Positions 36,128-54,389 of a stretch of 64,000 nucleotides of DNA are shown here, in pieces. Where the stretch lies: positions 1 through 64,000 of the forward strand of contig JAUIIB010000011.1 of NCBI GenBank assembly GCA_030431985.1, read 5' to 3'. The first letter of the stretch is position 1, and each line of letters opens with the position of its first letter. Made by a program: the position numbers and the translations under genes. The notes below the pieces were generated by a model. It was not told the DNA's origin, ran no database searches, and saw nothing but the letters and a program-made list of their open reading frames with translations. The DNA comes from Gammaproteobacteria bacterium. Its GTDB lineage: Bacteria; Pseudomonadota; Gammaproteobacteria; Burkholderiales; Nitrosomonadaceae.

Positions 36128-36187
36128 AACCTGGACCGGTTAAGTGATGTTTGTATGACCCGCTTCGATTAATCATGAAGGATTAGT

Positions 36188-37105
36188 ATGAGTATTATAG
36201 AGAAGGCAATAAACAAGCTTGAAAAGGAAGTCGGTAGCAAAGCCATACATAATGTAAAAAGGAAAAGGCCGCAGCCAGCCGTCAACACAACGATTAAAGC
36301 AGATGTTTCTGAAGAGGCAAATATTTCTGAAAAGGTGGTTGATCATTTTCAGGTAAATAGAATCAGCCACGATAAGCCTCTTCCTACAACTGCAAGTCCT
36401 AATTATATTAATATCGATCTCGAAAGATTGCATCAATTGGGGATTGTTACGCCTAATCAAGGTAAAACCCAGATTGCAGAGCAGTTTAGGATAATCAAAC
36501 GTCCACTGTTAACCAAGGCATTTGCAAAAAAAAATAACAATCTGATTATGATTTCGAGCGCGCTAGCAGGGGAAGGTAAAAGTTTTTGTGCGGTGAACCT
36601 AGCGATGAGTATCGCATCTGAGATGGATCATAGAGTTTTGTTGATTGATGCGGATGTGGCTAGACCTTCGATACCGAATTTATTGGACATTGAGAATCAA
36701 GCGGGATTAATGGATATACTCATTGGTAAGTCTGGGGATGTTTCAGACGTTCTGATAAAAACCAATGTAGAAAAACTGAGCTTGATTATGTCTGGGACTG
36801 CGCATTCTCATGCTACGGAGCTTCTGGCAAGCCAGACTATGGCCATACTGCTTGAAGAACTTGCTCAACGTTACAATGATAGAATTGTAGTCTTCGACGC
36901 ACCTCCTATACTATTAACGAGTGAAGCGCGTGTTTTACCCGAACGCATGGGGCAAATTGTCTTAGTCGTTGAAGCCGAACAAACAACGCAGCAGGCGCTA
37001 AATCAAGTAATTAACCAGTTCAGTTCTAAAGCCAATATTAGTTTGATTTATAACAAAGTTAAAACTTTCGCGAGTGGCGAGTATTGTGGGTACTACTACT
37101 CATGA
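36188..37105 (+). CDS. XrtA-associated tyrosine autokinase
   Basis: The 305-residue protein is a BY-kinase with a polar N-terminal linker (about residues 1-90) and a CpsD/CapB-like ATPase domain. Walker A is SSALAGEGKSFCAVNLA near residue 125, Walker A' is VLLIDADVARPS near 152, and Walker B lies in IVVFDAPPIL near 235. The C-terminal tail contains closely spaced tyrosines (YCGYYYS), the usual autophosphorylation cluster. With the chain-length determinant it would control polymer assembly. A GAAGGA ribosome site precedes the ATG. Its stop overlaps the next gene (ATGA, 37102-37105). Confidence 0.94.
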   Translation: MSIIEKAINKLEKEVGSKAIHNVKRKRPQPAVNTTIKADVSEEANISEKVVDHFQVNRISHDKPLPTTASPNYINIDLERLHQLGIVTPNQGKTQIAEQFRIIKRPLLTKAFAKKNNNLIMISSALAGEGKSFCAVNLAMSIASEMDHRVLLIDADVARPSIPNLLDIENQAGLMDILIGKSGDVSDVLIKTNVEKLSLIMSGTAHSHATELLASQTMAILLEELAQRYNDRIVVFDAPPILLTSEARVLPERMGQIVLVVEAEQTTQQALNQVINQFSSKANISLIYNKVKTFASGEYCGYYYS

Positions 37106-38634
37106 GTTTTTCAATTAAACAGAAAATCGATACTCTGTTTATTCATTTAAGCACCGCATTTGTTTTTTTTCTGATGCAGGTTGGATATGTAGCCGCGGGT
37201 GAGTGGGAATTTGATCCATCACTTACTGTAAGTGAAACATATACTGATAATGTGAGACTGGGAGGGCGATTAATACCGGGTGGAATTGGTGGTATTGGAT
37301 TCGGTGGTGCTGGTTCAGAGGGGGGAGATATGATTACACAAATCAACCCTCGATTGTCATTCTCAGGTGTAGGAAAGCGGTATGAGATAAGATCGGATTA
37401 TATGATGAATAATCTTATCTTTGCTCAGAATAGTAACTTAACACGCATTCGGCACCGGCTTAATGCCACAGGTACGGCAGAAATTTTAAAGGACTTGTTT
37501 TTTGTTGATGGTACTGCAAGAATCTTACAACAAAATATCAGTTTGTTGGCTCCACAGACAACAAGTAATATTTTTGTGACGGGGAATCGTGCAAATCTTA
37601 GAGTTTACAGTGTCAGCCCATATTTGCGGCATCGATTTGGGAATTTTGCGACTACAGAAGCGCGTTATACATGGAGCAAAGTTGAATCCGGTGCCAATGG
37701 CTTTAGAAATAGCCAAAGAGATGGTTATCAGTTCAGGTTAAACAGTGGTGAAAGGTTTGGTAAATTGGGCTGGGGATTCAATTACAATAATGATCGCATT
37801 CATTTAAAACGTTTTAACAGAACAATTGAGCTGGAACGCTATATTGGTAATTTACGTTACAATCTTACCTCACGTTTTAGCTTGACAGCTACCGGTGGTT
37901 ATGAACGGAACAGTTTTGTTTCAATTCGCGGTAAGCCAAGCAGTCCTACATGGACAGTGGGTTTCATCTGGGCGCCAAACAAAAGAACAGATTTAAAATT
38001 TAGTGCCGGACAACGGTTTTTTGGCGACACGTACTCGGCAAGTGCTAATTATCGAACGCGTCTAACAACCTGGCGGGTTCTCTATTCCGAAGATATTACG
38101 ACATTAAATCAACAAGCCGGCCAGTTTGGATCATTTGGTTCTTTAGGCGGGCTAAATGTTGGTAATTTGGCTTTGGGTTTAAGTAACTTTTTAAGTAATC
38201 GTGTTTTTTTACAAAGGCGCTTTAATGCGACTGTAACCTTAAACGGATCGAGAAATGATTTGACGCTCAGGCTATTTCAATTAAAGCGGCAGCCTTATAC
38301 ATCGGAGGAACTTGATGAGGATTTACTAGGCTTTCCTCTGTTTTTTAATGATACAAAGCAGCTTGGTGGAAATGTTTCATGGCGTTACAGAGTATCGCCA
38401 AAGACAAATCTTAATATGAGCTTTAGTTTCATTCGATATGATTTTTTATCGGCTAACAGTAGAAGAAATGACAATCTAATTTTTACAGCTAACGTGACTC
38501 GAGATTTTTTCCCGGACTTAACTGGTATGTTGCAGTATATGCGTATAGATCGATTATCAAATATACAGCAGGGAAGTCAAAATATTGATTTATCAGCCAA
38601 TGCCGTTACAGTATCCCTGACCAAGCATTTTTGA
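37102..38634 (+). CDS. XrtA/PEP-CTERM-associated outer-membrane beta-barrel protein
   Basis: The protein has 510 residues. A signal peptide (about residues 1-34, ending YVAAG) is followed by alternating polar/hydrophobic beta strands throughout, as in TIGR03016-type barrel proteins of PEP-CTERM loci. The mature start EWEFDPSLTVSETYTDN is typical of that family. A glycine-rich loop (PGGIGGIGFGGAGSEGG) lies near residue 60. The last residue is Phe (LTKHF), the outer-membrane C-terminal signature recognised by the Bam machinery. I chose the ATG that overlaps the kinase stop; a TTG 18 bases upstream is possible. It may form part of the polysaccharide or PEP-CTERM protein exit path. Confidence 0.9.
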   Translation: MSFSIKQKIDTLFIHLSTAFVFFLMQVGYVAAGEWEFDPSLTVSETYTDNVRLGGRLIPGGIGGIGFGGAGSEGGDMITQINPRLSFSGVGKRYEIRSDYMMNNLIFAQNSNLTRIRHRLNATGTAEILKDLFFVDGTARILQQNISLLAPQTTSNIFVTGNRANLRVYSVSPYLRHRFGNFATTEARYTWSKVESGANGFRNSQRDGYQFRLNSGERFGKLGWGFNYNNDRIHLKRFNRTIELERYIGNLRYNLTSRFSLTATGGYERNSFVSIRGKPSSPTWTVGFIWAPNKRTDLKFSAGQRFFGDTYSASANYRTRLTTWRVLYSEDITTLNQQAGQFGSFGSLGGLNVGNLALGLSNFLSNRVFLQRRFNATVTLNGSRNDLTLRLFQLKRQPYTSEELDEDLLGFPLFFNDTKQLGGNVSWRYRVSPKTNLNMSFSFIRYDFLSANSRRNDNLIFTANVTRDFFPDLTGMLQYMRIDRLSNIQQGSQNIDLSANAVTVSLTKHF

Positions 38635-38647
38635 TGGAATTGAACTT

Positions 38648-39655
38648 ATGTATGAATCGTTTTACAAACTAAATGCCAGGCCATTTTTGTTAAAACCCGA
38701 CCCTAGTTTTTTTTATGGCAGTAAGGGTCACAAACGTGCTATGGCTTACTTAGAATATGGATTGTCGCAGGGTGAAGGTTTTATTGTGCTGACAGGTGAA
38801 GTAGGTGCAGGTAAAACGACTTTGATGCGCAACCTGTTCCAACGGCTGGAGAAGGATAAAATAGTTGCGGTACAAATTGTCAGCACACATGTCGATTCTA
38901 GTGATATTTTGACACTGGTGGCAGCCGCTTTTGGTTTATCGTATTCGGGTGCAAGCAAAGCAACGCTACTGCTCGACATCGAACAATTCCTGCGTCGTTG
39001 TGATCAGCAGGGTAAGCGGGTTTTGCTGGTTGTTGACGAAGCACAAAATCTGTCTGCCGAAACACTTGAAGAACTGCGAATGCTGTCTAATTTCCAGACT
39101 GACGAGGTGCCGTTGTTGCAAACATTTTTATTGGGCCAACCTGAGTTTAAAAAAATTCTGCTCAATCAAAATATGCAGCAGCTCAGACAGAGAGTCATTG
39201 CCACCTATCATTTAGGTCCTTTGGACGAAGAGGAAACAACAGCATATATAGAACATCGATTAAGAACTGTAGGCTGGGGAAATGATCCTGTCATCAATGA
39301 TGATGCCTACCATCTGATACATATGTCAACGAATGGTATTCCACGCAAAATAAACCTGTTGTGTGACAGAATGTTCATGATGGGCTGCTTGGAAGAGCTA
39401 CATCACTTTGATACGGATGCAGTAAATGAAGTAATTAATGATTTTCAGCAAGAGTTCGATTCAAGTGAAATGGCACCCGATAACTCAATAGAACAGTTTG
39501 CTACAGATTCTGTGGCGATTGATCATGCTAAGGCTGACCTGGAAAAATTAGAAATCAGAATGGAAAAGATGGAACGGTCTGTGCTGTTTGTTCTGGATTT
39601 ACTCAAACAGAATATGTCTGTTAACAATGTGAAGAATGATTATCACAAGAGATAG
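38648..39655 (+). CDS. XrtA-associated ExeA-like ATPase
   Basis: The 335-residue AAA ATPase opens with YESFYKLNARPFLLKPDPSF, the usual start of ExeA/TIGR03015 proteins. Walker A is LTGEVGAGKTTLMRNL near residue 45, Walker B is VLLVVDEAQNLS near 123, and RQRVIATYHLGPL is the sensor region. The C-terminal 80 residues include an acidic linker and a short coiled coil (LEKLEIRMEKMERSVLFVLDLL). In type II secretion the ExeA relative helps the secretin cross peptidoglycan; in this locus it probably powers assembly of the export apparatus. It follows the barrel gene by 13 bases. Confidence 0.93.
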   Translation: MYESFYKLNARPFLLKPDPSFFYGSKGHKRAMAYLEYGLSQGEGFIVLTGEVGAGKTTLMRNLFQRLEKDKIVAVQIVSTHVDSSDILTLVAAAFGLSYSGASKATLLLDIEQFLRRCDQQGKRVLLVVDEAQNLSAETLEELRMLSNFQTDEVPLLQTFLLGQPEFKKILLNQNMQQLRQRVIATYHLGPLDEEETTAYIEHRLRTVGWGNDPVINDDAYHLIHMSTNGIPRKINLLCDRMFMMGCLEELHHFDTDAVNEVINDFQQEFDSSEMAPDNSIEQFATDSVAIDHAKADLEKLEIRMEKMERSVLFVLDLLKQNMSVNNVKNDYHKR

Positions 39656-39673
39656 ATTATGGGGAAAATAACA

Positions 39674-40525
39674 ATGAATACCCAGTCAATCAGTAATGCG
39701 ATGACGATTGACGTGGAGGATTATTTCCAAGTTTCCGCTTTTGAAAACCATATTCCGAGAACTGCATGGGACAATATGCCTTGCAGGGTCGAGCGCAACA
39801 TGGAAAGAATACTTAATTTGTTGGATGAGCATCAAATTAAGGCAACTTTTTTTACCTTGGGCTGGATTGCAGAACGCTATCCGGAAATGGTGAGACGCAT
39901 GGTGGATAATGGACACGAATTGGCAAGTCACGGGTGGGGACATGCGCGTGTGACTGATTTAACGCCTACAGAGTTTAAAAATGACATTGTGCGCAGCAAG
40001 GGGTTGCTGGAAGATATTAGCGGTCAGTCAATACAAGGCTACCGCGCACCTAGTTTTTCAATTAACGATCATAATCTGTGGGCTTTGGATTGTTTGGCGG
40101 AGGCAGGGTATCGTTACAGTTCAAGCATCTATCCTGTGCGTCATGACCATTACGGTATGCCTGATGCACCTAGATTCGCAAATTTTCCTAGAGGTGAGCA
40201 GGGTGTATTGGAGCTTCCGGTCACAACTGTACGGTTGTGGGGACGAAACCTGCCGGCAGGTGGTGGCGGGTATTTTCGATTTTGGCCCTATATGGTTTCT
40301 AAGTGGTTTATTAATAGACTGAATAATGCTGAGTCACGTGCGGCAATTTTTTATTTTCATCCGTGGGAAATTGATGCTGAACAACCGCGTCAAAATGGGA
40401 TCAAATTTAAAACTCGATTTCGGCATTATTTGAATTTGAGCCGGATGGAAGGAAGACTGCGAACATTGATTCGTGATTTCAAGTGGAACAGAATGGATAA
40501 AGTTTTTCTTTCGCAAGAGGTCTAG
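39674..40525 (+). CDS. XrtA system polysaccharide deacetylase
   Basis: The family 4 carbohydrate esterase-like protein has about 283 residues. NAMTIDVEDYFQVSAFE opens the domain and includes the metal-binding or catalytic aspartates. ATFFTLGWIAERYP is near residue 50. The zinc-binding HELASHGWGHARV (two His) is near 80 and the C-terminal FYFHPWEID near 235. It would remove acetyl groups from the exopolysaccharide. I chose the ATG at 39674; an ATG five codons upstream (39659) is equally possible. No signal peptide is visible, as is usual for this subfamily (TIGR03006). It sits between the ATPase and the FemAB-like gene. Confidence 0.92.
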   Translation: MNTQSISNAMTIDVEDYFQVSAFENHIPRTAWDNMPCRVERNMERILNLLDEHQIKATFFTLGWIAERYPEMVRRMVDNGHELASHGWGHARVTDLTPTEFKNDIVRSKGLLEDISGQSIQGYRAPSFSINDHNLWALDCLAEAGYRYSSSIYPVRHDHYGMPDAPRFANFPRGEQGVLELPVTTVRLWGRNLPAGGGGYFRFWPYMVSKWFINRLNNAESRAAIFYFHPWEIDAEQPRQNGIKFKTRFRHYLNLSRMEGRLRTLIRDFKWNRMDKVFLSQEV

Positions 40526-40533
40526 CCGTAACA

Positions 40534-41604
40534 ATGAATGTATCCAATGACTTATCAAATTCGGACTCTTCAGTATCTAATGTGTTAGTTAAAGAATTAA
40601 ATCCCGAGAATAACGAACGCTGGGATCAGTTTGTCTTGGCGTGTTCAAAAGCAACTTTTTTTCATAAATCGGGTTGGAAAAAAGTTATTGAGAGGGCTTT
40701 CGGTCATAAAACTTGGTTTTTATATGCGGAGAATGAGGGAAGAATAGAGGGTGTTTTGCCTTTGGTTGAGATTAAGAGCGTTTTGTTTGGACACTCTATC
40801 AGCGCATTACCGTTTTGCGTTTATGGTGGAATTGCTTCAGAAAACGATGTTGCACGGCAAAAATTAGAAGCGGCAGCTTATGAGCTAGCACAACAACAAC
40901 AGGTCGATTATCTTGAATACAGAAACATGTATCCAGTACACAATGAATGGCCTACTAAAGACTTGTATGTAACGTTTCGTAAAGCAATTGATCCGGATGT
41001 TGAGGCGAACTTACTGGCGATACCGAGAAAACAACGTGCAATGGTGCGAAAAGGTATTAAAAATGAGTTGAACAGCGATGTAGATGACGATATAGAACGT
41101 TTCTTTTTTGCTTATTCAAGAAGCGTGCATCGTTTGGGTACTCCCGTTTTTCCAAAGCAGTACTTCCAACTACTTAAAGAAACATTTGCGGAGCAATGTG
41201 AAATTCTGACTGTTCACAAAAATAATAACACCTTAAGCAGCGTAATGAGTTTTTATTTTAGAGATGAAGTACTTCCATATTATGGTGGTAGTACGGGTGA
41301 TGCTAGGGCCTTAGCCGCAAATGATTTTATGTATTGGGAATTAATGAGGCGAAGTTGTGAGAAAGGCTATAAATTGTTTGATTTTGGTCGAAGTAAACGT
41401 GACACAGGGTCGTTCAGTTTCAAAAAGAATTGGGGGTTTGAAGCGCAACCGCTTTACTATGAATATCAACTGATTCAGTCATCGGGAATACCTAATCACA
41501 ATCCTTCCAACCCGAAATATAAATTTTTTATTAAAGCCTGGCAGAAGCTTCCACTTTCAGTGGCGAATAGAGTTGGCCCCTATATTGTAAAGAACCTGGG
41601 ATAG
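40534..41604 (+). CDS. FemAB-like XrtA/PEP-CTERM-associated protein
   Basis: The 356-residue protein is a double GNAT-fold relative of FemA/FemB. Features include FVLACSKATFFHKSGWKKVIERAFGH near the N-terminus, AIPRKQRAMVRKGIKN near residue 165, and a second GNAT half with VMSFYFRDEVLPYYGGSTG near 245 and FDFGRSKRDTGSFSFKKNWG near 285. The family (TIGR03019) occurs only with exosortase loci. FemAB proteins use aminoacyl-tRNA to add amino acids to peptidoglycan, but the acceptor in PEP-CTERM systems is unknown. It begins eight bases after the deacetylase stop. Confidence 0.92.
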   Translation: MNVSNDLSNSDSSVSNVLVKELNPENNERWDQFVLACSKATFFHKSGWKKVIERAFGHKTWFLYAENEGRIEGVLPLVEIKSVLFGHSISALPFCVYGGIASENDVARQKLEAAAYELAQQQQVDYLEYRNMYPVHNEWPTKDLYVTFRKAIDPDVEANLLAIPRKQRAMVRKGIKNELNSDVDDDIERFFFAYSRSVHRLGTPVFPKQYFQLLKETFAEQCEILTVHKNNNTLSSVMSFYFRDEVLPYYGGSTGDARALAANDFMYWELMRRSCEKGYKLFDFGRSKRDTGSFSFKKNWGFEAQPLYYEYQLIQSSGIPNHNPSNPKYKFFIKAWQKLPLSVANRVGPYIVKNLG

Positions 41605-41633
41605 CATGATTCCTCTATCGGGACATACGATGA

Positions 41634-43190
41634 ATGAATAATCGGATTTTAGACAAAAAGTCAAATCATAATTCAGTTTATCCGGCTATGATTATGACCG
41701 TACTGGCCATAATCGGTATTCTGGCAATTTACCATGAAACTGTTTGGTCTATGGTTACCACATGGCATAGATCAGAGACATACGCACATGGGTTTCTTAT
41801 ACTGCCCTTTGTAGTCTATATGATATGGACTAAACGACATAGTCTTATTACTATCAACCAGAAACCGAGTTCACTTGCTTTAATCGCTTTGTGTGTCTTA
41901 GGTTTGTTCTGGTTAATTGCGGAGCTGGCGAGTGTTCTGATATTGAAACAGTATTTCGTTGTGGCTATGTTGCCCGTAGTGGTTGGAGCTGTTTTGGGTT
42001 TCAGAATGATGTATGCGTTGGCATTTCCGTTAGCTTACCTTTTTTTTGCTGTACCTTTCGGTGACATTCTGATTCCACCGTTAATCAATTTTACGGCCGA
42101 TTTTACTGTAAATGCGCTACAACTGAGTGGTATCCCGGTTTTCCGGGAAGGAACATTCTTTTCCCTGCCGTCTGGAAACTGGTCCGTTATAGAGGCCTGC
42201 AGCGGGTTACGTTATTTAATTGCATCGGTGACGTTGGGTACATTATATGCGTATCTTACTTATAGGAGTTTGACCAGGCGAGCCATTTTTATACTCTTTT
42301 CAATTATCGTACCAATAGTTGCGAATGGGGTACGTGCTTATTTGATTGTCATGACAGGGCATCTGAGCGATATGGAGTTGGCTGTAGGCGTGGATCACCT
42401 GATCTATGGCTGGGTTTTCTTTGGTTTAGTCATGCTGACTCTTTTTTGGATAGGGTCAATCTGGCGTGAGGATAGGCAGAATGAAATTAATGCTGAGAAG
42501 ATGAATAATTCATCAGCTGGAAATAGCGCTTTTGCGGTTTCAATTAAACAATCGGCGTTATTTATGTGTGGCGTATTGATGGTTGCATCAATTTGGCCGG
42601 TTTATGCTGCGTATCTCGAAAAAGATGTGGACGATGAGCCACCGGAATTTAATTTTTCATTGTCTGATCGTAACTGGCGAGCTGACGGTGATCCTGCTTC
42701 AAATTGGGAGCCGATTTATATTGGTCTTCCTCAACAATTTACGGAGCATTTTGTCAATCACGAGAATCAGAAAGTCAGTCTGTTTATTACTTATTATCAT
42801 AATCAAAAACAAGGAAATGAACTGATTAATTCAGGGAATGTGTTGGTGCCCGAGGTCGATTCTAAGTGGTACAAAATTAGCGATTCAAAATTAGCCATTA
42901 AAATCGGTGAGAGTCGATTTGATGTCCGTCAGGCTGAGCTAAACTCATTTTCAAAAAATTTATTAGTCTGGCGGTGGTACGTTTTGGATGGTGTTGCAAC
43001 AACTAGTCCATATATAGCCAAGGCGTTACTGGCAAAGAATCAATTGCTTTCTGGTGATGATTTCGGCGCTGAAATCATTGTTGCGGCACCTTATGATATT
43101 AAGATTGATGAGGGGTCGCAAATTCTTCATCAGTTCCTCAAGGATATGCTTGCAACAATATCCGACAATCTGGAAAAAATTAATCAGTAA
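41634..43190 (+). CDS. xrtA: Exosortase A fused to an EpsI domain
   Basis: This is the polytopic transpeptidase-like enzyme thought to cleave PEP-CTERM sorting signals. About eight membrane helices fill residues 15-285. The proposed catalytic residues are all present: Cys189 in VIEACSGLRYL, Arg234 in NGVRAYLIV and His255 in VDHLIYGW. After a further helix at about 303-320, the C-terminal 190 residues form a periplasmic EpsI domain (NFSLSDRNWRADGDP; VSLFITYYHNQKQGNEL). Single-chain XrtA-EpsI fusions are common in betaproteobacteria. The gene is embedded in the polymer locus, which fits coupling of protein sorting to exopolysaccharide. No PEP-CTERM substrate was found in the window. Confidence 0.95.
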   Translation: MNNRILDKKSNHNSVYPAMIMTVLAIIGILAIYHETVWSMVTTWHRSETYAHGFLILPFVVYMIWTKRHSLITINQKPSSLALIALCVLGLFWLIAELASVLILKQYFVVAMLPVVVGAVLGFRMMYALAFPLAYLFFAVPFGDILIPPLINFTADFTVNALQLSGIPVFREGTFFSLPSGNWSVIEACSGLRYLIASVTLGTLYAYLTYRSLTRRAIFILFSIIVPIVANGVRAYLIVMTGHLSDMELAVGVDHLIYGWVFFGLVMLTLFWIGSIWREDRQNEINAEKMNNSSAGNSAFAVSIKQSALFMCGVLMVASIWPVYAAYLEKDVDDEPPEFNFSLSDRNWRADGDPASNWEPIYIGLPQQFTEHFVNHENQKVSLFITYYHNQKQGNELINSGNVLVPEVDSKWYKISDSKLAIKIGESRFDVRQAELNSFSKNLLVWRWYVLDGVATTSPYIAKALLAKNQLLSGDDFGAEIIVAAPYDIKIDEGSQILHQFLKDMLATISDNLEKINQ

Positions 43191-46133: not shown

Positions 46134-46787
46134 TCAAGAATTATTTTTTTCCATAGTGTTAATAAATGCATTAGCTTCGTCAATTGAGGCTTCCATTGAA
46201 TCAACTAATGCGGAAACATCGGATTGAATATTGCCAAGTTCGCTTTTAAGAGCAGCAATTGCACGGGCATTCAGATTGTGTTTGAGGAACATGACTTGAT
46301 CTCTAAAAACGCGCAGTATCGGTTCAATCTTAGCTTCTGCATTTTTCATTGATGAAATGAGTTGTCGGTAATGCCGTTTAGTGGAAGTCAGTTTATTTTG
46401 ACTGCTGCGTTTCAGGCTGGTATTGCTATACTCGGCTATTTCCTGTTCCCACTCAGTAAATAATGCCTGGGAGACATCTTCAATATCTTCAATGCGGCTT
46501 CTGACTTCTTCAGCCTTGCTCACGCTGGATTCATATTCATCGTTTAGCTTGGTGTAAATTGCTTCCAGATCACCGCCGCTAAAATTGGTGGCCGCCGAAA
46601 ACTGGGCCAATGCAGACTTAAACTGCTCTTTGGTTTCTTCTTGTGTGTCGCGCGCCTGTTCTACCCGGTAAACCATGACGTCTCTTTTAGGAATGCCAAT
46701 TTTCTCAAGTCCTTCGTAGTACATGGTAGAACATGCACTCAAAACCAGAATGATAGTGAGCAAAAGCGGAAAATGTTTTGTTTTCAT
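46134..46787 (-). CDS. DUF2959 family lipoprotein
   Basis: The 217-residue protein has a signal peptide ending in a lipobox (LVLSAC, Cys near residue 19) and then an almost entirely helical, charged body with coiled-coil character (EETKEQFKSALAQFSAATNF; NDEYESSVSKAEEVRSRIED). This matches DUF2959, a family of unknown function. I chose the ATG at 46787, which follows GGGAGG; a longer frame reaching 46838 would add 17 residues with no ribosome site. It comes 47 bases after the last gene of the lipid cluster on the same strand and might be co-transcribed with it. Confidence 0.85.
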   Translation of the reverse strand: MKTKHFPLLLTIILVLSACSTMYYEGLEKIGIPKRDVMVYRVEQARDTQEETKEQFKSALAQFSAATNFSGGDLEAIYTKLNDEYESSVSKAEEVRSRIEDIEDVSQALFTEWEQEIAEYSNTSLKRSSQNKLTSTKRHYRQLISSMKNAEAKIEPILRVFRDQVMFLKHNLNARAIAALKSELGNIQSDVSALVDSMEASIDEANAFINTMEKNNS

Positions 46788-46834
46788 AGTACCTCCCATA
46801 TACAGGTGTTCGTTATCGTGTAATTGAATTGTAT

Positions 46835-47803
46835 TCAACGTATAGCGCCTTTACGCAAAATCTGCCATATTACCGAAAATCCCCAAAGAAAAGGGTGACG
46901 GCGTAGCCAGGGTGTGATTTCGATATTTATGCCGGTATGACGTTCTATTTTCCAGGCAGCATAATCGAGGCAATCTTTAAAAGTTAAAGTGGCTTTTGAT
47001 AAGCGCAAGATTGACAGAACGCGTCCTTGCCAGCGGCGTATTCTCCAGTGCCATAACGCCTGCCGGCGTACCTTGGATGAATTCTGACACAAATAGTTTT
47101 GATTGTCGGGATTGTAACTGAGAATATCGGTTAACACCGTGTGTGCGGCAATTGTTAACTGTGCAAATTCGTAATGATTGAGTGCGGCCAGATGTTTTGC
47201 ACGAGTTTCTTTTTCAGGCCTTAATTCGGCAGCGTAACTCAGCATTAAACAGCGCGTCCATAGTGTTTCGGTATCAATCGCTGTATTGTCCAAAGTACTT
47301 GCGCCTGAACGCAGAAATGTAATGACTGAATGGGCAATTGCATGGAAAATCTGTTTTCGGGCAGTCTCGTCCCTTGCATAAAGTAGTCGCGATGGTTGCG
47401 CAAAACGAGCCCAGATATACGAATGGAACCAATATTTTGAACCATTTTCAAAATCGGTTGTAGAGATTACCGCATATTTGGCTCTTAATATTCTGCCTTG
47501 GTGGTTAACTTCCAAATAAAATACATTAGGTGGAAGCCAGGCATTTAACAGACCCAGATAACGCTTGGTGTAAGCTTTTTTATAGTCATCGACCAGAACA
47601 TAAAGATCGGCAATACCTTCGTCTAGGTTTCCTGTACGCAGACACGAGCCGTACAGAATAATGGCATCAACCGTTGTTTGGAAGCGTTCACACAAAGCCT
47701 CGACAAATTTCGCGTAGTCGGATGAAACATCACGTGTACTCTGTTTGGCGACAGTGTCGAGTAGTGTTTCGGGTAGCGTTTCACAAGATACTGAATGGGA
47801 CAT
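46835..47803 (-). CDS. Nucleotidyltransferase-fold protein with altered active site
   Basis: The 322-residue protein begins with a polymerase-beta-like minimal nucleotidyltransferase domain: IILYGSCLRTGNLDEGIADLYVLVDD at about residues 49-74. The GS motif is present, but the expected D-x-D reads D-L-Y, so one catalytic aspartate appears replaced. The C-terminal 200 residues are helical and basic (LWHWRIRRWQGRVLSILRLSK), with a hydrophobic tail. It is the seventh gene of the lipid cluster and starts five bases after the kinase-like gene. It may be a non-catalytic binding protein, or the active site may be built differently. I do not recognise a named family. Confidence 0.65.
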   Translation of the reverse strand: MSHSVSCETLPETLLDTVAKQSTRDVSSDYAKFVEALCERFQTTVDAIILYGSCLRTGNLDEGIADLYVLVDDYKKAYTKRYLGLLNAWLPPNVFYLEVNHQGRILRAKYAVISTTDFENGSKYWFHSYIWARFAQPSRLLYARDETARKQIFHAIAHSVITFLRSGASTLDNTAIDTETLWTRCLMLSYAAELRPEKETRAKHLAALNHYEFAQLTIAAHTVLTDILSYNPDNQNYLCQNSSKVRRQALWHWRIRRWQGRVLSILRLSKATLTFKDCLDYAAWKIERHTGINIEITPWLRRHPFLWGFSVIWQILRKGAIR

Positions 47804-47808
47804 AAGTG

Positions 47809-48834
47809 TTACAGTACAAGAAAGGTGACGGGAGGCGTGGCGGTAATGCGTAAGGGTTGATCGCCAGTTAATCGGTATAATTCACCATCGACTATGTACT
47901 CATCGTCCATATGAATTGTTAGTGAATGTCCGTTGTGACTGTGGTATCCATCTTGCGCTTTGAGTCGATGACCGTTGCCAGTCAATAATGGCCATAGTGA
48001 ACGCCATAAATGCTTGTGTTTCTGGTCGACCCATGTCATATGTAGGGGGGCATTTTCTTTACCCCAGAAAGGCCGTATTTTTAATAGCAAGCAATCTAGC
48101 GCACTGACCAGCGCAAAAAGATAGGTGCCTCTCGGCGTTTCTCCGTTTTCTTTAATCACAGACATCTTCACAGGAGACCACTCGTGGTGATTCCGGCTGA
48201 ATATCATGCCGACCAGAGAGCGCAACATTATAAGGCAGGTAAAAATGCCGCCAGTGATACCGATCTGCTTGATGTTACTGCGTGAGAATTTAACGCCACG
48301 CGCAACCAGTCCCACGGCAAAAAACATACCATAAATAGGTTGTTTTCCATATTGTTCCATACGCAACACAGGACGTTGAACCAGTTTGGCTGACTCGCTG
48401 GAGTTCTCGCAATTTAGATATTCGGTCAAGCGATACAATACTGTGTCCGGGTTTCCGCGCATACCGAGATCAAGTGGCGTCATATTGGTTGTGCCACCGG
48501 GTACAATCATCAAAACCGGCCATTCCTCTAACGGTCGTATCATAAAGAGGTGGCTGAGAACAGCATGGGATGTGCCGTCTCCGGCGATAATGACCAGCAA
48601 ATCGATATTTGCCTGTATCAGTGTATTAGTCGCAGTAATAAACCCAGAAGCGTCGCTTGCTTCACACAGGATACTGTTTGGTATTTGCTCAAGTGCGTCC
48701 CGAACAGCTTGTTCTTGTTTTTTTATTCGTCCGCTCATGGGGTTGAGTAATAGGCCGATTCTACTTGGCGAGAAGACTAAATTGTCGAGTTTGGAATCAC
48801 GAATCATGAATCTATTTTGAAGTGAATTAAACAT
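47809..48834 (-). CDS. Diacylglycerol-kinase-like lipid kinase
   Basis: The protein has about 341 residues and a DAGK catalytic fold. IGLLLNPMSGRIKKQEQ (about residues 27-43) is the NPxSG element, VIIAGDGTSHAVL near 85 is the GGDGT-type ATP-binding loop (here AGDGT), and PGGTTNMTPLDLG near 113 is the substrate motif. A C-terminal beta-sandwich ends in DDEYIVDGELY. Relatives phosphorylate diacylglycerol, sphingoid bases or other lipid alcohols. I chose the ATG at 48834, which overlaps the upstream stop by eight bases; later and earlier starts are possible. Its place next to a CDP-alcohol phosphatidyltransferase supports a lipid substrate. Confidence 0.82.
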   Translation of the reverse strand: MFNSLQNRFMIRDSKLDNLVFSPSRIGLLLNPMSGRIKKQEQAVRDALEQIPNSILCEASDASGFITATNTLIQANIDLLVIIAGDGTSHAVLSHLFMIRPLEEWPVLMIVPGGTTNMTPLDLGMRGNPDTVLYRLTEYLNCENSSESAKLVQRPVLRMEQYGKQPIYGMFFAVGLVARGVKFSRSNIKQIGITGGIFTCLIMLRSLVGMIFSRNHHEWSPVKMSVIKENGETPRGTYLFALVSALDCLLLKIRPFWGKENAPLHMTWVDQKHKHLWRSLWPLLTGNGHRLKAQDGYHSHNGHSLTIHMDDEYIVDGELYRLTGDQPLRITATPPVTFLVL

Positions 48835-50062
48835 TAACCGGTTGCAGGCGTTTGGGGTCGATCGGTGCACGTGTAAATAATTTTACAGCAAGTATGTTGC
48901 GGTCTCGAATGGGATCGATATCCTGCAGCCAGGAGCGCAGCTTACCCTGTTGACGCCAAACCTGCCATCCTGCAATAAGTCGGCCCATTAAAATTGCCGT
49001 CGACAGTAGGTGCCAGGCCACAACCAGTAACAGACCCAGGTCCGGCTGTTCTATAGCCCATCCATAAGTTAGCAGAATCAGGTTGGGATTACGCCGGGCG
49101 GTGATGAGCCGGTTATATGAATCGATTCTGCGCCAGATGAACATATCGAACGATGCAAACCAAAACTGAAATGCACCTTCGCACAAGCGGCCGCCAACAT
49201 AGCCGAAAAATACCAACCAGATTAATAAATCGAGGTTAGCAATCGGCGTTACTGTATTTGCCAGACCGATGCCCCAGGCCAGATACCAAAGCGGGGGATG
49301 GATAATGTCAAGTCCGTGATCGAAAACGTCACCAAAGCGACTCGACGTGACTGTAACCCGGGCCAATTTGCCATCTACGGTATCTAGGAAAGTCATCAAC
49401 CAGCCCATGACCAAGCCCGCTGCAAAAAAGCCGTACCAGAACAAGATGCCAGCCAGTAAAGCGAATACGGCACTTGCCAGCGTAACATGGTTTGGTTTTA
49501 ATCCGAAACGCACACATAGCTGTGTGCACCAAAAAGCGGGTAAGGGCCAGAGCCATTTTGTCACTAAATCGGTGACTCCTTTATATGAGCCATGGAATAG
49601 CTCTTTTTCAAGTAGTTTGCGATTCTTTTCATTAATCGGCAGCACATAGGGCGGGTCCTTCTTTTTTAAATTTTGCTGAAAATCAATTTTGAGGTCATCG
49701 AGTGTATAATGCGGCAGCGTTGCAAGGATATGCTCCGGCCTTAAATTATTTTTTTTGGTTAAGACGTCGAGCAGATGCGGTGCTTGATTTCCAAATGTAC
49801 GGACTGCTGTAGGCTGCATGTCACGGTTGTACAGCACCATGGGCTCTTTGAGCGCAAAAAGTGCGGTCAGTACTCTGATATCAAAGAGATAGTGTGTGCT
49901 TAAAATGAGCAATGGTGCATTTGCAGGAACTTTCTCAATTTCGTCAACCAATAAAACGTTCTTGAATGGCCGAATCATCCGATGCAGACGTTCCCGTCCA
50001 TTTAGCCCCCATATTGGGGTAGTGTTTTCACCAATGGTATAGATATAGATTGTTTTTAACAT
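48827..50062 (-). CDS. CDP-alcohol phosphatidyltransferase with N-terminal extension
   Basis: The 411-residue protein's membrane domain (about residues 185-380) holds the complete family motif DxxDGxxAR-x8-G-x3-D-x3-D, seen as DTVDGKLARV...FGDVFDHGLD near residue 222. The enzyme therefore transfers a phospho-alcohol from a CDP-activated donor. The N-terminal 170 residues are soluble (PLLILSTHYLFDIRVLTALF; VLYNRDMQPTAVRTFGNQAP) and resemble a degenerate nucleotidyltransferase-like fold. This recalls inositol-phosphate cytidylyltransferase/phosphotransferase fusions of hyperthermophiles, but that is inference. PssA and PgsA are much shorter and lack this extension. A gap of 135 bases, with a possible TATAAT box, separates it from lptG. 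Confidence 0.85.
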   Translation of the reverse strand: MLKTIYIYTIGENTTPIWGLNGRERLHRMIRPFKNVLLVDEIEKVPANAPLLILSTHYLFDIRVLTALFALKEPMVLYNRDMQPTAVRTFGNQAPHLLDVLTKKNNLRPEHILATLPHYTLDDLKIDFQQNLKKKDPPYVLPINEKNRKLLEKELFHGSYKGVTDLVTKWLWPLPAFWCTQLCVRFGLKPNHVTLASAVFALLAGILFWYGFFAAGLVMGWLMTFLDTVDGKLARVTVTSSRFGDVFDHGLDIIHPPLWYLAWGIGLANTVTPIANLDLLIWLVFFGYVGGRLCEGAFQFWFASFDMFIWRRIDSYNRLITARRNPNLILLTYGWAIEQPDLGLLLVVAWHLLSTAILMGRLIAGWQVWRQQGKLRSWLQDIDPIRDRNILAVKLFTRAPIDPKRLQPVNV

Positions 50063-50197
50063 AGCATTTTGGTTCAGTTTAGTTTTTTATTTTAGAAGAG
50101 CAGGTTATAGCAGTGTATCTCAGTTTTTATTCTTTATTAACTGAATGAAATTGCTAAGAATTATTGTGCTTTTAGAGGATATTATAACAGTAGGTAT

Positions 50198-51259
50198 TTA
50201 GAATATTCTTCGTAACCATAATACTGCTAGCAGTATAAGTACCGTGCTGGGCGCGAGGGCTGCGAAAGCGGGATTAAGGTGCAATATCAGGCTGGCATTG
50301 GCAAAAATCTGATCGAGTAAATAGACAGCAACACCGATAAGGGCGGCTAATACAAGTTTGTTAGCCAAGCCGGAGCGTATTGAACCGAAAATAAATGGGA
50401 TTGAGAGCAGTAGCATCGCGATTGTCAGTAATGCACTGCCTGCTTTTCGCCATAGGGCAAGGGCGTAGCTATCCGCCTCCTGTCCGGTGTTACGTAGAAA
50501 ATCAACATGGCGAACGAGTTCCAGTGGTGAAAGACTTTCCGGAGGTTTAGTGAGCGTTGCAATATCTTCTGGTTTCAAGAACGATTTCCAGCGTAATACT
50601 TTGCTGCGTGTTAACAGAATATTTGAGTCGGTAAATTTCCGAATGACCACATTGGACAGTACCCAGGTATCACCACTGTCAATGTCCGCAAATTCAGCTT
50701 GAATGTGCGCCAATAAATGATCGGTTTGACCAAAATATAAAATCTCAATGTCGGCAGCCTTTTTGGCGTGCAGCATTTGCCCGATACGCAATATATTTTG
50801 TTCGTTACGGGTCCATATACCGAGCCCTTTGCCCAGCTCAGCAGTTTGATTCAATGCGACAGCCCGGTTTGAAATTGCTTTTTGTTGCAGTTGCGGCGCT
50901 ACAAATTGCTCTAGACCGGCAATGAACAATATCAACGCTACACCCACTGCGATGGGAGCCAGACTGATTTGTAACGGAGAGAGTCCCGCGTTGCGCATGG
51001 TAATGAGCTCAGAATTTACTGCCAGCACACCCAGCGCCGCAACCGTGCCTAACAAGGCTATAAAGGGTGCGATTTGGATAAATCGTCTCGGTAACAGCAT
51101 GGTTGTATATGAGAATGCATCTGCCGTTTGGTAGGTGCCCTTGCCAACATCGTCGAGTTGCTCCAATAGGTCGAAGAAACTGAATAAGGGTAATAATACG
51201 GCTGTGGCGATTATTAAGCCCACGAGTACTTGGATAGCAATATAGCGGAATATCAGCAT
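50198..51259 (-). CDS. lptG: LptG-like permease of the LPS-type export ABC transporter
   Basis: The 353-residue protein is of the YjgP/YjgQ family. It has three N-terminal membrane helices (about residues 10-125), a periplasmic beta-jellyroll domain (about 130-250, IRKFTDSNILLTRSKVLRWK) and three C-terminal helices. RNAGLSPLQISLAPIAVG near 95 is the coupling-helix region contacting the ATPase LptB. I chose the ATG at 51259, which shares one base with the lptF stop (TAATG); a frame reaching 51337 lies inside lptF. The pair normally extracts lipopolysaccharide from the inner membrane. Its setting among lipid-modifying genes, away from pepA, raises the possibility of a different lipid cargo. Confidence 0.88.
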   Translation of the reverse strand: MLIFRYIAIQVLVGLIIATAVLLPLFSFFDLLEQLDDVGKGTYQTADAFSYTTMLLPRRFIQIAPFIALLGTVAALGVLAVNSELITMRNAGLSPLQISLAPIAVGVALILFIAGLEQFVAPQLQQKAISNRAVALNQTAELGKGLGIWTRNEQNILRIGQMLHAKKAADIEILYFGQTDHLLAHIQAEFADIDSGDTWVLSNVVIRKFTDSNILLTRSKVLRWKSFLKPEDIATLTKPPESLSPLELVRHVDFLRNTGQEADSYALALWRKAGSALLTIAMLLLSIPFIFGSIRSGLANKLVLAALIGVAVYLLDQIFANASLILHLNPAFAALAPSTVLILLAVLWLRRIF

Positions 51260-52335
51260 TACCGGAGTGAAAGCAATTTTTGACCAGGTTTGAGCGAGTA
51301 TGCAAAGATCAGTACAAAAAGTAAGGCATATAACCACCAGACGCCGGGGATAGTGTCGACAACATTTTGTTCAACCCAGTTTTTTGCCAGGCCGCTCAAA
51401 TTGTAATATACAGCGAAAACCATGGCTGCTAAAAGATAAGTTTTTGTTGCTTTATCCTGACGTGGCGTGATTTGAATAAAGGCGACTGCAACCAGCGCCA
51501 TTAAAATAGTTGAAAATGGCCGAGACAGACGCCATTGCAGTTCAGCAATTTCCCAGGGTTTTTCCGATTTCCAGAGTGTCCGGGTTGGAGCAGCCTTACG
51601 GCGATATCGCAATACCAGTTCGCTGTCGGTAAAATACGTAAGCTTTTCGAATGTAATCGTATCATCTCTTGAAGCGTTGCGTGTCAGTTGATAGATATAG
51701 CCATTCGATAACTGTATGCTGGGACGTTCTTCTTGTTTTGTTGGTTGAATTTGCCTGGCTTTTTTAGCAACAATGATTTCATGTGTTTCTGGTGTGTTTG
51801 TATAGTGAAAAATATGATTCATTGTTTTGTGAACATTATCTTTACTATGGACGTACACTACTCTGCCACTGCGCTCACTACCGTAAAAACGGCCTGCCTG
51901 AAAACGATTAGTATTAAGTTCTGCTTCTGCCTGAGCGTCAAGAATGTAGCTTTCTGCATATGCCCAAGGGCGAACATAAGCAGACAGGAGACCGCTAATC
52001 ATACCTACCGGTACGGCAACCATCAAAACGATAAATACGATCTGTCTACCGCTGATACCGTTCGAACGCAGTACGTTTAATTCTTGATCCTTATTGAGCC
52101 GCGTAAGACCGCTGATAATGGCGATATAGAGTGCTATAGGGATGAGGACCTCCAGGGCGATCAGGGTTTTCAGCATTACGAGTTTAAACAGCGCGCCAAA
52201 CCCAAGTGTCTCTGTAACGGCTCCGGCAAGCAGACGCGCGCTGCTAAAGCTGGCAAACAAGCCAATGAGAATCAAGATGATCACAAGAAACGGAATGGTG
52301 AGTTCACGTGTGATATAGCGTTCGATGATTTTCAT
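51259..52335 (-). CDS. lptF: LptF-like permease of the LPS-type export ABC transporter
   Basis: The 358-residue protein has the LptF start (MKIIERYITRELTIPFLVII), six membrane helices in a 3+3 arrangement, the coupling region LNVLRSNGISGRQIVF near residue 88, and a periplasmic beta-jellyroll (about 135-255). The motif LQWRLSRPFSTILMALVAVAF near 270 is typical. With LptG and the ATPase LptB it would pull a lipid from the inner membrane to the LptA bridge. It begins 72 bases after the nucleotidyltransferase gene. Whether this is the cell's only LptFG or a second set cannot be decided from the window. Confidence 0.9.
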   Translation of the reverse strand: MKIIERYITRELTIPFLVIILILIGLFASFSSARLLAGAVTETLGFGALFKLVMLKTLIALEVLIPIALYIAIISGLTRLNKDQELNVLRSNGISGRQIVFIVLMVAVPVGMISGLLSAYVRPWAYAESYILDAQAEAELNTNRFQAGRFYGSERSGRVVYVHSKDNVHKTMNHIFHYTNTPETHEIIVAKKARQIQPTKQEERPSIQLSNGYIYQLTRNASRDDTITFEKLTYFTDSELVLRYRRKAAPTRTLWKSEKPWEIAELQWRLSRPFSTILMALVAVAFIQITPRQDKATKTYLLAAMVFAVYYNLSGLAKNWVEQNVVDTIPGVWWLYALLFVLIFAYSLKPGQKLLSLR

Positions 52336-52407
52336 GTATCAATGCTATCAGAAATGCAACGGTGGCTCATCGAATGTTGCCCATGAAAATTGTCTCTATG
52401 AAATTTT

Positions 52408-53238
52408 CTAGTGTTGTGCAGAAGAGGGAAATGGTTTTCCCAGAATAGATTCAGCCAATAACAGATCTTCGACTTTATCGACATCAATCCCGGCGCGGGC
52501 ATCGGACATTAGTACCGGACTTACGCGTACACCCGATTTGGCGGCCAACATATCCAGCGCTTTTTCCAGAGATAATCTCCTGAATACATATGACAATACA
52601 ATACCTGGATTTACCAAATGTGCAATTAACCGCCAAGGCTGTTTGCGTAGATCTTCTACTGTACGCCAGAATTTTATGAGCGCACGTCCCTGCGGGTTGA
52701 AGGTAAACAGATTGCAACCGCAGATGCCGCCATCACGTAAATGAAAAACGGTGCGCTTGGTCCCGGGAAAAGTATCGGTCATCAGTGTGTTTGTGATGAG
52801 ACCGACGGTCGCATCGCTGCTGGATCTTAGCGATTCGGCCAAAAAATATTCGACAATGTCCGGTGTAAGCAGCGCATGGTCAGCGGTTGTCAGAAATACT
52901 GGCGTGTTGACGGGCAAATGATTCAGTCCGTGTTCTGCGCTGCGGCTGGGTGAATTTTGATTTGATAGCCACATCAACTCTCCTGAATCGATACGCTTTT
53001 TTAAGGACGGGCAATCATCTAATTTTGACTGGGGTGGGCCACATAACATAATGGAATCGACAAGGTCGCAAGTGGAAAGTGCATCAATCACACGGAGAAT
53101 CATCGGTATACCGCCAACCGGCGCAAAGGCCTTGCAGGCTACGCCGGCATATTGGGCTACCGGGTCACCGCTAGCCCGGTCGGCGGCCAGAATCAATGCA
53201 GTGAATTTTTGTTGTGTACTGTTGAGAGTGTCGGTCAC
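52408..53238 (-). CDS. MobA-like NTP transferase
   Basis: The 276-residue protein has a sugar-nucleotidyltransferase fold. The N-terminal nucleotide-binding segment is ALILAADRASGDP...CKAFAPVGGIPMI (about residues 14-45, with the conserved Lys). The metal-binding aspartate is in FLTTADHALLTP near 118, and a second acidic site is DARAGIDVDKVEDL near 250. Enzymes of this group form NDP-alcohols or NDP-sugars. With a CDP-alcohol phosphatidyltransferase three genes downstream, it may make the CDP-activated head group; inositol-, glycerol- or sugar-phosphate are candidates. The start is GTG, overlapping the upstream TGA (GTGA). The substrate is unknown. Confidence 0.8.
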   Translation of the reverse strand: MTDTLNSTQQKFTALILAADRASGDPVAQYAGVACKAFAPVGGIPMILRVIDALSTCDLVDSIMLCGPPQSKLDDCPSLKKRIDSGELMWLSNQNSPSRSAEHGLNHLPVNTPVFLTTADHALLTPDIVEYFLAESLRSSSDATVGLITNTLMTDTFPGTKRTVFHLRDGGICGCNLFTFNPQGRALIKFWRTVEDLRKQPWRLIAHLVNPGIVLSYVFRRLSLEKALDMLAAKSGVRVSPVLMSDARAGIDVDKVEDLLLAESILGKPFPSSAQH

Positions 53239-54389
53239 AAAGTTTTTCCATAAATACGATAACGTTTATAGGCTTCGCTGCCAATTTTTTTTAGAATACC
53301 ACGCATTGGGAGATTGTCTTCCAATATCCATGACAATTCGACTTCACGAATGCCATGTGCCAGACCGATTTTTTTCGGTGCTTCAATGACTGTGCATGCC
53401 AGTGCCATACCCAGGGAAGTGTTATGAAACTGTTTACGTACGCCCATCAGAGGAATACGGGCCGTAGTGATTTCATGACGTTTCAGTTTACGGATTAATT
53501 TCAACCAGCCAAATGGCAACAAACGTCCATTGAGTTCGCCAAAGACTTCATTCAGATTGGGTAGGGCTGCTATAAACGCAGACGGCAGGCCGTCAACTTC
53601 GGCGATTTGGATGTAGTCATTATGGACAAGATATTTCAGACTGTTACCTAGTTCCGCAAATTCCGCTTCTGTGAAAGGTACAAATCCCCAGTTTTCAGAC
53701 CATGCGTCATTAAAAATGTCCCGCAGTATTTCCATTTCCCTGGTTAATTGTTCACGATTCAGACTTCGGAGCTGAATCTGATGAGCATGGCGTTGCATCA
53801 ATTGTTTTACGATACGAGGCGGTTCAAAGTCGGCCGCTATTTTATAGGCAAATAAGTCCTTGGCAGGAATATAACCGTGTAGTTCAAGTAACTGGGGATA
53901 CCAGTCCGCCGTATGTGGCATCATGACGAACGGTGGCGTATCGAAACCTTCGACAAGAATACCGCATTCCTGATTGATCGATAAATTGAACGGTCCCGTA
54001 ATACAATGCGCGTGCCGAATGGCTAGCCAGGCTTCAGCATGCAATATGAGTGCGTTAAATACATCGGCATCATTAATGCATTCAAGTAAGCCGAAATGGC
54101 CGGTATCGTCGCCATAGCGCTCACGGTGTAATTGGTCAATTTGCGCACTGATTCTGCCTGCTGGCCGGTTATGCTTATAAGCTACCCAGGCCTGCCATTC
54201 GCCGTGCCGTAAAAACGGATTGTATTTTGAAAAATGAAAACGTCTTTCCAGACGTAATGGCGGTACCCACCTCGGGTCGTCCTGATAAATCTGCCATGGG
54301 ACATTGATAAAGTCACTCATGTCTCTGTATGACATGACCGGCTTGACTGTCAATGCGTCAGTGGCGGGGCCCTTCCGGAGGAATGTCAT
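53235..54389 (-). CDS. Large GNAT-like acyltransferase, uncharacterised
   Basis: The 384-residue protein belongs to a group of long GNAT-related proteins. It starts VMSYRDMSDFINVPWQIYQDDPRWVPP, with RISAQIDQLHRERYGDDTGHFGLLEC near residue 80 and GPFNLSINQECGILVEGFDTPPFVMMPHT near 133. A second GNAT half follows, with EIAEVDGLPSAFIAALPNLNE near 270. The role is unknown; N- or O-acylation of a lipid or amino group would fit. It is the first gene of the seven-gene cluster and overlaps the next gene by four bases (GTGA). I chose the ATG at 54389, preceded by GAGGA; a TTG directly before it is in frame. Confidence 0.7.
   Translation of the reverse strand: MTFLRKGPATDALTVKPVMSYRDMSDFINVPWQIYQDDPRWVPPLRLERRFHFSKYNPFLRHGEWQAWVAYKHNRPAGRISAQIDQLHRERYGDDTGHFGLLECINDADVFNALILHAEAWLAIRHAHCITGPFNLSINQECGILVEGFDTPPFVMMPHTADWYPQLLELHGYIPAKDLFAYKIAADFEPPRIVKQLMQRHAHQIQLRSLNREQLTREMEILRDIFNDAWSENWGFVPFTEAEFAELGNSLKYLVHNDYIQIAEVDGLPSAFIAALPNLNEVFGELNGRLLPFGWLKLIRKLKRHEITTARIPLMGVRKQFHNTSLGMALACTVIEAPKKIGLAHGIREVELSWILEDNLPMRGILKKIGSEAYKRYRIYGKTL

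Follow-up and report, generated by a model that had tools for sequence, protein, structure and literature searches.

A Nitrosomonadaceae gene cluster related to the Caulobacter phosphosphingolipid cluster encloses LptF and LptG genes

What lipid might be made and exported by seven adjoining genes that combine a GNAT-like protein (cerS), a MobA-like NTP transferase, LptF, LptG, a CDP-alcohol phosphatidyltransferase (cpgA), a DAGK-like kinase (cpgB) and a degenerate nucleotidyltransferase (cpgC)? The genes are found in a 64,000-nucleotide stretch of DNA from a member of the Nitrosomonadaceae (positions 1 to 64,000 of contig JAUIIB010000011.1, assembly GCA_030431985.1), here called the window, in which seven minus-strand open reading frames (ORFs) are present at 46835..54389. 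An initial annotation had taken them for an undescribed pathway of lipid head-group synthesis and export; the ORFs, Pfam and NCBIfam agree with the families that it named, and the match to a cluster of Caulobacter supports its view of a functional set for lipid head-group synthesis and lipid export. Judged by orthology, the seven genes are the local form of the Caulobacter phosphosphingolipid cluster for ceramide phosphoglycerate (CPG) and diphosphoglycerate (CPG2). As a whole, the cluster very probably forms the core of a system that makes and exports phosphosphingolipids.

In Caulobacter crescentus, a region of 17 genes (CC_1152-CC_1168) leads from ceramide to CPG and CPG2 (PMC11324152), and CC_1154 has been assigned the function of ceramide synthase (PMC9386255, PMC11324152). 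In Nitrosomonas eutropha, at least 13 of these 17 are reported to have good orthologues, spread over three genomic regions (PMC11324152), and those of strain C91 include Neut_0458-0461 and Neut_1100 (PMC9386255, PMC11324152). Both the set of genes and its occurrence in N. eutropha were thus already published in 2024 and are known, so that the claim of an undescribed pathway falls. As a reference we used a 21-kb stretch of Caulobacter vibrioides T5M6 (L175), with the Caulobacter locus tags assigned via gene order rather than taken from records. Nine of the ten biosynthetic genes have homologues in that stretch, with identities of 50% for serine palmitoyltransferase (SPT), 44% for CerS, 44% for AcpR, 41% for AasR, 38% for CpgA, 34% for CpgC (E 8e-39), 33% for the NTP transferase, 33% for CerR and 25% for CpgB (E 1e-21), whose gene adjoins cpgA there too. 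The match of CerS covers residues 10-385 of 385 (E 8e-102) and has the same-cluster location. CpgD, the exception, found no match within the 21-kb stretch and was matched at 46% in Caulobacter sp. Root1455 (L171). Of the permeases, LptG showed 22% identity and LptF had no match in the stretch at E 0.01. Among 36 named loci retrieved with a Phenylobacterium CpgA, 26 of which are at least 18 kb long, we found CpgB at 34 (26 of the long loci), CpgC at 31 (25), SPT at 30 (25), CerS at 28 (25), the NTP transferase at 28 (25), a HIT-domain protein at 28 (23) and CpgD at 23 (20). The closest characterised relatives come from one pathway, not from unrelated ones.

The genes for the ceramide backbone lie mostly elsewhere in the genome. 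An aasR-cerR-acpR-spt operon is present on another contig (G000:C59), outside the window, in the order published for N. eutropha, going by the locus-tag numbers of that organism. Its SPT scores 578.9 bits on NCBIfam NF047599, a model of the 'beta' serine palmitoyltransferase, against an equivalog cut-off of 500; this match and the N. eutropha gene map accord with the family name Nitrosomonadaceae. When 81 genomes of the family were searched, our own included and 70 of them counted as good, SPT was found in 79 (limit E 1e-110), the two misses (G021 and G024) being less than 90% complete. Homologues of CerS, CC_1153, CpgA-D, SPT, AcpR, AasR and CerR, and an LptF/LptG pair within the cluster, are thus shared with CC_1152-CC_1168. 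Unlike in Caulobacter, the genes here stand at three places, the LptFG pair is the sole one and of an Escherichia coli-like lineage, and LpxC was not found in the 81 family genomes; in addition, orthologues of CC_1168, CC_1167, CC_1166 and CC_1158 are not reported for N. eutropha in the accessible text of PMC11324152.

The seven genes stay together among relatives. We fetched 46 main loci from other family genomes, hand-picked from 36 cpgA-positive and 10 cpgA-negative genomes, and found the full seven-gene set at 28; gene by gene, CerS was present at 46, LptG at 46, LptF at 45, CpgB at 44, CpgC at 44, the NTP transferase at 43 and CpgA at 33. The order cerS-NTP-lptF-lptG-(cpgA)-cpgB-cpgC is mostly retained. 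Since the seven families adjoin across the family loci, an adjacency peculiar to this strain is ruled out, and the neighbourhood of the genes is not due to chance. In the 10 loci without cpgA/cpgD, cerS, the NTP transferase, lptF and lptG were kept at all 10, and cpgB-cpgC at nine. A replacement transferase at the vacant cpgA site was rejected, as the nine loci that keep cpgB have only 54-306 bp between their matches to lptG and to cpgB. The tenth, from the 1.3 Mb genome G004 (L103 4197-8372), retains cerS, the NTP transferase, lptF and lptG; a genome-wide search gave neither cpgA nor cpgD, cpgB and cpgC are not at the locus, and it is possible that the ceramide of G004 bears a different head group. 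At another locus (L101, from G038) the cluster has no LptF match, and the two listed PF03739 matches of that genome are on different contigs, so that LptF seems to stand apart from LptG.

How might these proteins act together? The products of spt, acpR, aasR and cerR, with CerS from the window, would make ceramide, judging from homology and gene order. CpgB would then phosphorylate it to ceramide-1-phosphate, the activity described for the Caulobacter protein (PMC10331486); for what CpgB and CpgD do in Caulobacter we follow PMC10331486, PMC12275187 and PMC13228409. The window CpgB carries the motif AGDGT, and its relatives have GGDGT or AGDGT. CpgC is required for CPG in Caulobacter and presumably also here, and a CDP-diacylglycerol (CDP-DAG)-synthase-like domain has been noted before in CC_1161 (PMC11324152). 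Our AlphaFold model of CpgC (29 sequences; pLDDT 85, pTM 0.84) supports this: its five best PDB matches are all Tam41, the mitochondrial/bacterial CDP-DAG synthase (including 6ig4, 6ig2 and 7ecd; E 1.7e-9 to 6.7e-9, TM 0.53-0.60 by target), with aminoglycoside nucleotidyltransferases much weaker (8e-5), and D66, R107 and K109 are invariant across the 29 sequences. The Tam41 fold suggests that CpgC makes CDP-ceramide from ceramide-1-phosphate. Unlike Tam41, to which it has 14-17% identity in a comparison of whole folds rather than superposed active sites, CpgC would have ceramide-1-phosphate as its expected substrate.

For the second phosphoglycerate, CpgD makes CDP-glycerate, judging from its Caulobacter orthologue, and CpgA would use it for CPG2, as proposed in Caulobacter; CpgA is predicted to add this second phosphoglycerate to CPG. 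The DxxDG..AR..G...D...D motif of CpgA is intact, as the initial annotation had described, and invariant among 14 and 29 aligned homologues (L128, L129 and L130 excluded). Its AlphaFold model (29 sequences; pLDDT 86) matches AF2299 (4o6n, E 1e-11) and IPCT-DIPPS (4mnd, E 5e-8). On NF041135, the model of the bifunctional archaeal IPCT/DIPPS, CpgD covers positions 2-215 (48.3 bits) and CpgA positions 218-314 (31.4 bits), both far under the cut-off of 580, and CpgD scores better on some other nucleotidyltransferase models. Because they match opposite halves, the two proteins correspond to the N-terminal and C-terminal halves of one known enzyme, and CpgA may act in the manner of the archaeal DIPPS/AF2299 transferases, its cytidylyltransferase being the detached protein CpgD. 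Unlike in the archaeal enzyme, the proteins are separate here, and a search with the whole CpgA model reached the cytidylyltransferase 2xme at no better than E 0.31. The CC_1153-type NTP transferase keeps R21, D25, K36, D120, D252 and D254 invariant in 29 sequences (L171 excluded). A PDB sequence search yielded no named function for it, the nearest match being the hypothetical protein 2dpw (E 4.5e-12), followed by weak cytidylyl- and thymidylyltransferases. Of the initial annotation, the scheme of activation with CTP, transfer, phosphorylation and export by LptFG stands, and the sequence of steps differs: by orthology the GNAT-like protein is the ceramide N-acyltransferase of an early step, the transferase follows the kinase, and phosphoglycerate is activated with CTP by CpgD, encoded on another contig.

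The distribution of CpgA and CpgD predicts that they form an optional, separable unit. With limits of E 1e-3 for CpgA and E 1e-25 for CpgD, and after one CpgA match of 67 residues at E 1e-3 (G013) was dropped before counting (64 instead of 65 of 81), both were found in 63 of the 81 genomes and neither in 16; the two discordant genomes (G024 and G028) are incomplete, giving concordance in 79/81. All 70 good genomes are concordant, 60 with both and 10 with neither (Fisher p 8e-15 and 3e-12 for the two sets, kinship ignored). A 46-genome tree, from which the LptG rows of five genomes and the LptF row of one are missing through length filter or absence, gave six changes at best, five of them forced by supported branches, and in each of the five independent pairs a change in CpgA goes with one in CpgD. 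Such a pattern would mean that the family includes both CPG2-makers and CPG-only species.

The neighbours of cpgD add candidates to this unit. In our genome the CpgD candidate is on contig C24, outside the window, and LicC cytidylyltransferase is its closest solved structure by sequence; after cpgD, in a run whose gene ends overlap, come genes for a HIT-domain protein, a protein of the fatty-acid desaturase family and a phosphoglycerate mutase. In 20 regions fetched from the 64 CpgD-positive genomes, cpgD, HIT and mutase genes occur together in all 20 and the desaturase gene in 17; the mutase and desaturase neighbours are a difference from the Caulobacter cluster. Among the 36 fetched cpgA-positive genomes, cpgA lies away from the cluster in three (G002, G022 and G034), where it is near cpgD, HIT and mutase genes, as is a second cpgA copy in G018; the four genes share one locus in L082, L084 and L095 and fall within about 17 kb in G034. 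HIT homologues (47-55% identity) were present in 8 of 15 checked loci outside the family: L122, L123, L127 and the C. vibrioides stretch have the gene adjoining lptF, L129 has it flanked by cpgA and cpgD, and the other three (L171, L185 and L188) have no lptF match. The first His of the HIT motif is Asp in 10 of 11 sequences, L129 keeping the His. By gene order the HIT gene would be CC_1157, which has been called 'probably unrelated' (PMC11324152), and is thereby another gene in common with the Caulobacter cluster. A dedicated enzyme for 2-phosphoglycerate may exist (PMC12275187), and the mutase of the cpgD operon could supply this compound. It may also simply be the glycolytic enzyme of the cell. 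A mutase is present at just one of the 36 named loci (L190, where it adjoins cpgD), so that the association with cpgD belongs mainly to this family. Three further observations concern copies of these genes: G018 has a second cpgD-like stretch near the cluster (G018:C15:237276-238003), in two pieces in different frames, which looks like a broken copy beside an intact one on another contig; G088, outside the family, has three CpgA homologues within about 22 kb (L124, L125); and in G034 the relocated cpgA has a third LptF-like gene close by (L090 3738-9200).

Which lipid, then, would the permeases carry? A PF03739 search of our genome gave two matches, the lptF and lptG of the window; across the 81 genomes there are exactly two matches in 75, three in four and none in two incomplete ones. 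In a tree of nine family genomes plus the window (a fifth PF03739 match of G430 and the LptG of G001 left out), the window LptF and LptG group with LptFG of E. coli (SH-aLRT 96 and 97), and the LptF2/G2 pairs of alphaproteobacterial clusters, C. vibrioides included, form a separate group (SH-aLRT 99 and 97). On this grouping a transfer of alphaproteobacterial LptF2/G2 was rejected, and the PF03739 search and tree found no second pair of that clade in our genome. Consistent with this, a Phenylobacterium cluster pair scores 192 and 225 bits on the NCBIfam models, whereas LptF and LptG of the window, as well as LptC, LptA and LptB of the same genome, are above the cut-offs. The genes lptC, lptA and lptB follow one another and precede rpoN, and LptC was found in 78 of the 81 genomes. 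A plasmid search for an outside LptF returned 9 records, all enterobacterial or from Pseudomonas, which were not used. Among eight CpgA-positive genomes outside the family, a cluster pair and another pair occur in G338, G430 and G175 (with the fifth match in G430), and G193 has two pairs, both away from the cpgA contig. The single pair of G088 and that of G182 are at the cluster, those of G362 and G293 elsewhere.

LpxC is the committed enzyme of lipid A synthesis. In a search for LpxC, with LptD/LptE and other lipid A genes outside its scope, it was found in 0/81 family genomes and 0/70 good ones, and the controls (E. coli, Caulobacter, Synechococcus and Bacteroides) were positive. With no LpxC, normal lipid A should not be made, and the family appears, from its gene content, to be without normal lipopolysaccharide (LPS). 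A KdsB-like cytidylyltransferase is encoded in a sugar-gene cluster of our genome (L061 5217-5966) despite the absence of a detected LpxC. Of nine lipid A genes, N. europaea keeps lpxK and N. multiformis lpxA only, a loss ascribed to genome reduction (Opiyo et al., 2010; PMC3087551). The absence of LpxC and the single LptFG pair together make the sphingolipid the most likely cargo of the Lpt bridge: the sole LptF/LptG, with LptC, LptA and LptB from the other locus, would carry it to the outer membrane. LPS-lacking sphingomonads have been cited as an example (PMC11324152); they have sphingolipid in place of LPS, as proposed here, and belong to a different class. A wider proposal, for and against which we see an equal case, is that the Nitrosomonadaceae, a family of ammonia oxidisers, as a whole gave up lipid A and cover the outer membrane with ceramide phosphoglycerates sent through the original LptB2FGC-A bridge, with cpgA-cpgD setting one versus two phosphoglycerates on the surface lipid. 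Under this proposal the lptF and lptG of the LPS bridge would have become part of the sphingolipid operon, and HIT and phosphoglycerate mutase genes would accompany cpgD in the separable unit. In its accessible parts, the report on N. eutropha ties the orthologues neither to missing lipid A genes nor to a single LptFG pair (PMC11324152), and a literature search, mostly of non-subscription papers, gave none linking Nitrosomonas sphingolipid genes to lipid A loss or LptFG. Relative to the literature examined, in the parts accessible, three features appear to be new: a sole LptFG pair of E. coli type in a family where LpxC was not found, the unit of CpgA with CpgD, and the linkage of HIT and mutase genes to cpgD. 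The E. coli BL21 stretch that we examined does not contain the ceramide genes.

A different account of the permeases would leave the synthesis genes as described and regard LptF/LptG as an old neighbour exporting a residual glycolipid or LpxC-free LPS, with the sphingolipid travelling by another route. It can draw on the persistence of lptFG with cerS in the fetched cpgA-less genomes, including G004 with no cpgB/cpgC at the locus; on the likeness of the window pair to the LPS exporter of E. coli, and of LptC, LptA and LptB to ordinary LPS-export proteins; on G362 and G293, whose only pair is not near cpgA; and on the KdsB-like enzyme in its sugar-gene cluster. We nevertheless consider it unlikely, given that LpxC is missing throughout the 81 genomes, that N. 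europaea and N. multiformis each keep one, different, lipid A gene (PMC3087551), that in most fetched family loci lptFG has ceramide genes on one side and head-group genes on the other, and that it is also inside the cluster in two metagenome-assembled genome records (L189, Gammaproteobacteria; L190, Proteobacteria). The head group itself could be other than phosphoglycerate, CpgA attaching inositol phosphate or another polyol phosphate to ceramide: its best NCBIfam matches are inositol-phosphate transferases, and its closest solved structures include PIP synthases and IPCT-DIPPS. Those NCBIfam scores are all far under the cut-offs, however, and CpgA is inherited together with CpgD. In Caulobacter the orthologue of CpgD is a phosphoglycerate cytidylyltransferase (PMC12275187), and cpgD lies near a phosphoglycerate mutase gene, so that we hold this account to be improbable in a high degree. 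As for the glycerolipid head-group pathway of the initial annotation, with the GNAT protein modifying a finished lipid, family names alone permit it; orthology and the published N. eutropha map contradict it, since the GNAT-like protein is a homologue of the ceramide synthase CC_1154 and the genome also carries spt, acpR, aasR and cerR, and it has scarcely any probability left.

Several observations weigh against the phosphosphingolipid reading that we prefer. The identity of CpgB to its Caulobacter counterpart, 25%, is low, and cpgB and cpgC are both absent at 2 of the 46 loci, those of G064, which is cpgA-positive, and G004. Reading CpgC as the maker of CDP-ceramide leaves the addition of glycerate without an assigned enzyme. 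CC_1153 is reported to be needed for CPG2 in Caulobacter, but its homologue is retained at 10/10 fetched loci without cpgA/cpgD, outlasting these genes, and is absent at 3 of the 46 loci (a count of the locus only) whose genomes, G061, G073 and G043, hold both. The LptFG tree was made by a quick method, has some long branches and includes no other betaproteobacterial LptFG. The co-loss test has only five supported independent events, for which the sign test p of 0.0625 is its floor. Finally, our genome is a draft, 91% complete.

The layout of the cluster is given in Table 1. With the longest ORFs, there are overlaps of 4 bp (cerS/NTP), 79 bp (lptF/lptG) and 44 bp (cpgA/cpgB) and gaps of 72 bp (NTP-lptF), 135 bp (lptG-cpgA) and 5 bp (cpgB-cpgC). 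The next in-frame ATGs (51259 and 48834) shrink the lptF/lptG overlap to 1 bp and that of cpgA/cpgB to 8 bp, and with them the overlaps of 1-8 bases described by the initial annotation hold; these starts are more likely for lptG and cpgB than those of the longest ORFs. Pfam assigns NTP_transf_3 to the MobA-like protein, LptF_LptG to both permeases, and CDP-OH_P_transf and DAGK_cat; a scan at E 0.01 gave no family for the GNAT-like protein, and the sole Pfam match of the 'degenerate nucleotidyltransferase' encoded by cpgC is Tam41, sub-threshold. A DUF2959 ORF overlaps cpgC by 4 bp. It was matched in 19 of the 46 related loci, every one of the same genus, and in 0/36 named loci; this restriction to one genus makes it a doubtful member, and it was set aside from the core. 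Elsewhere in the window, a plus-strand run of genes at 33799-43190 looks like an exosortase-linked exopolysaccharide cluster, with putative proteins for polysaccharide export and chain length and others of deacetylase and exosortase-like type.

Table 1. Genes of the cluster and its flank in the window, with predicted products.
Gene and predicted product	Coordinates	Strand	Remarks
cerS, GNAT-like ceramide synthase (sphingoid-base N-acyltransferase)	53235..54389	-	orthologue of CC_1154 / Neut_1100; longest ORF from 54392
MobA/CofC-like NTP transferase	52408..53238	-	orthologue of CC_1153; PF12804 50.6 bits
lptF, inner-membrane permease of Lpt bridge	51259..52335	-	NCBIfam TIGR04407 309.3 bits, cut-off 230
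lptG, inner-membrane permease of Lpt bridge	50198..51259	-	TIGR04408 311.5 bits, cut-off 240; longest ORF from 51337
cpgA, CDP-alcohol phosphotransferase with extra N-terminal domain	48827..50062	-	PF01066; orthologue of CC_1159
cpgB, DAGK-family ceramide kinase	47809..48834	-	PF00781 46.9 bits; orthologue of CC_1160; longest ORF from 48870
cpgC, Tam41-like cytidylyltransferase	46835..47803	-	orthologue of CC_1161
DUF2959 lipoprotein-like gene, doubtful member	46134..46838	-	PF11172 278.8 bits

The route of bacterial sphingolipids to the outer membrane has been called unknown (PMC11324152, 2024). With no LpxC found and one LptFG pair inside the sphingolipid cluster, the Lpt bridge of this family would have no usual LPS cargo, so that a direct test of sphingolipid transport is possible. 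Because CpgA and CpgD occur or are missing together, natural CPG-only species would be on hand for comparison, and the neighbours of cpgD name candidates, the mutase for the source of 2-phosphoglycerate and the HIT protein for CC_1157. If this account is true, a major group of nitrifiers would have an unusual surface.

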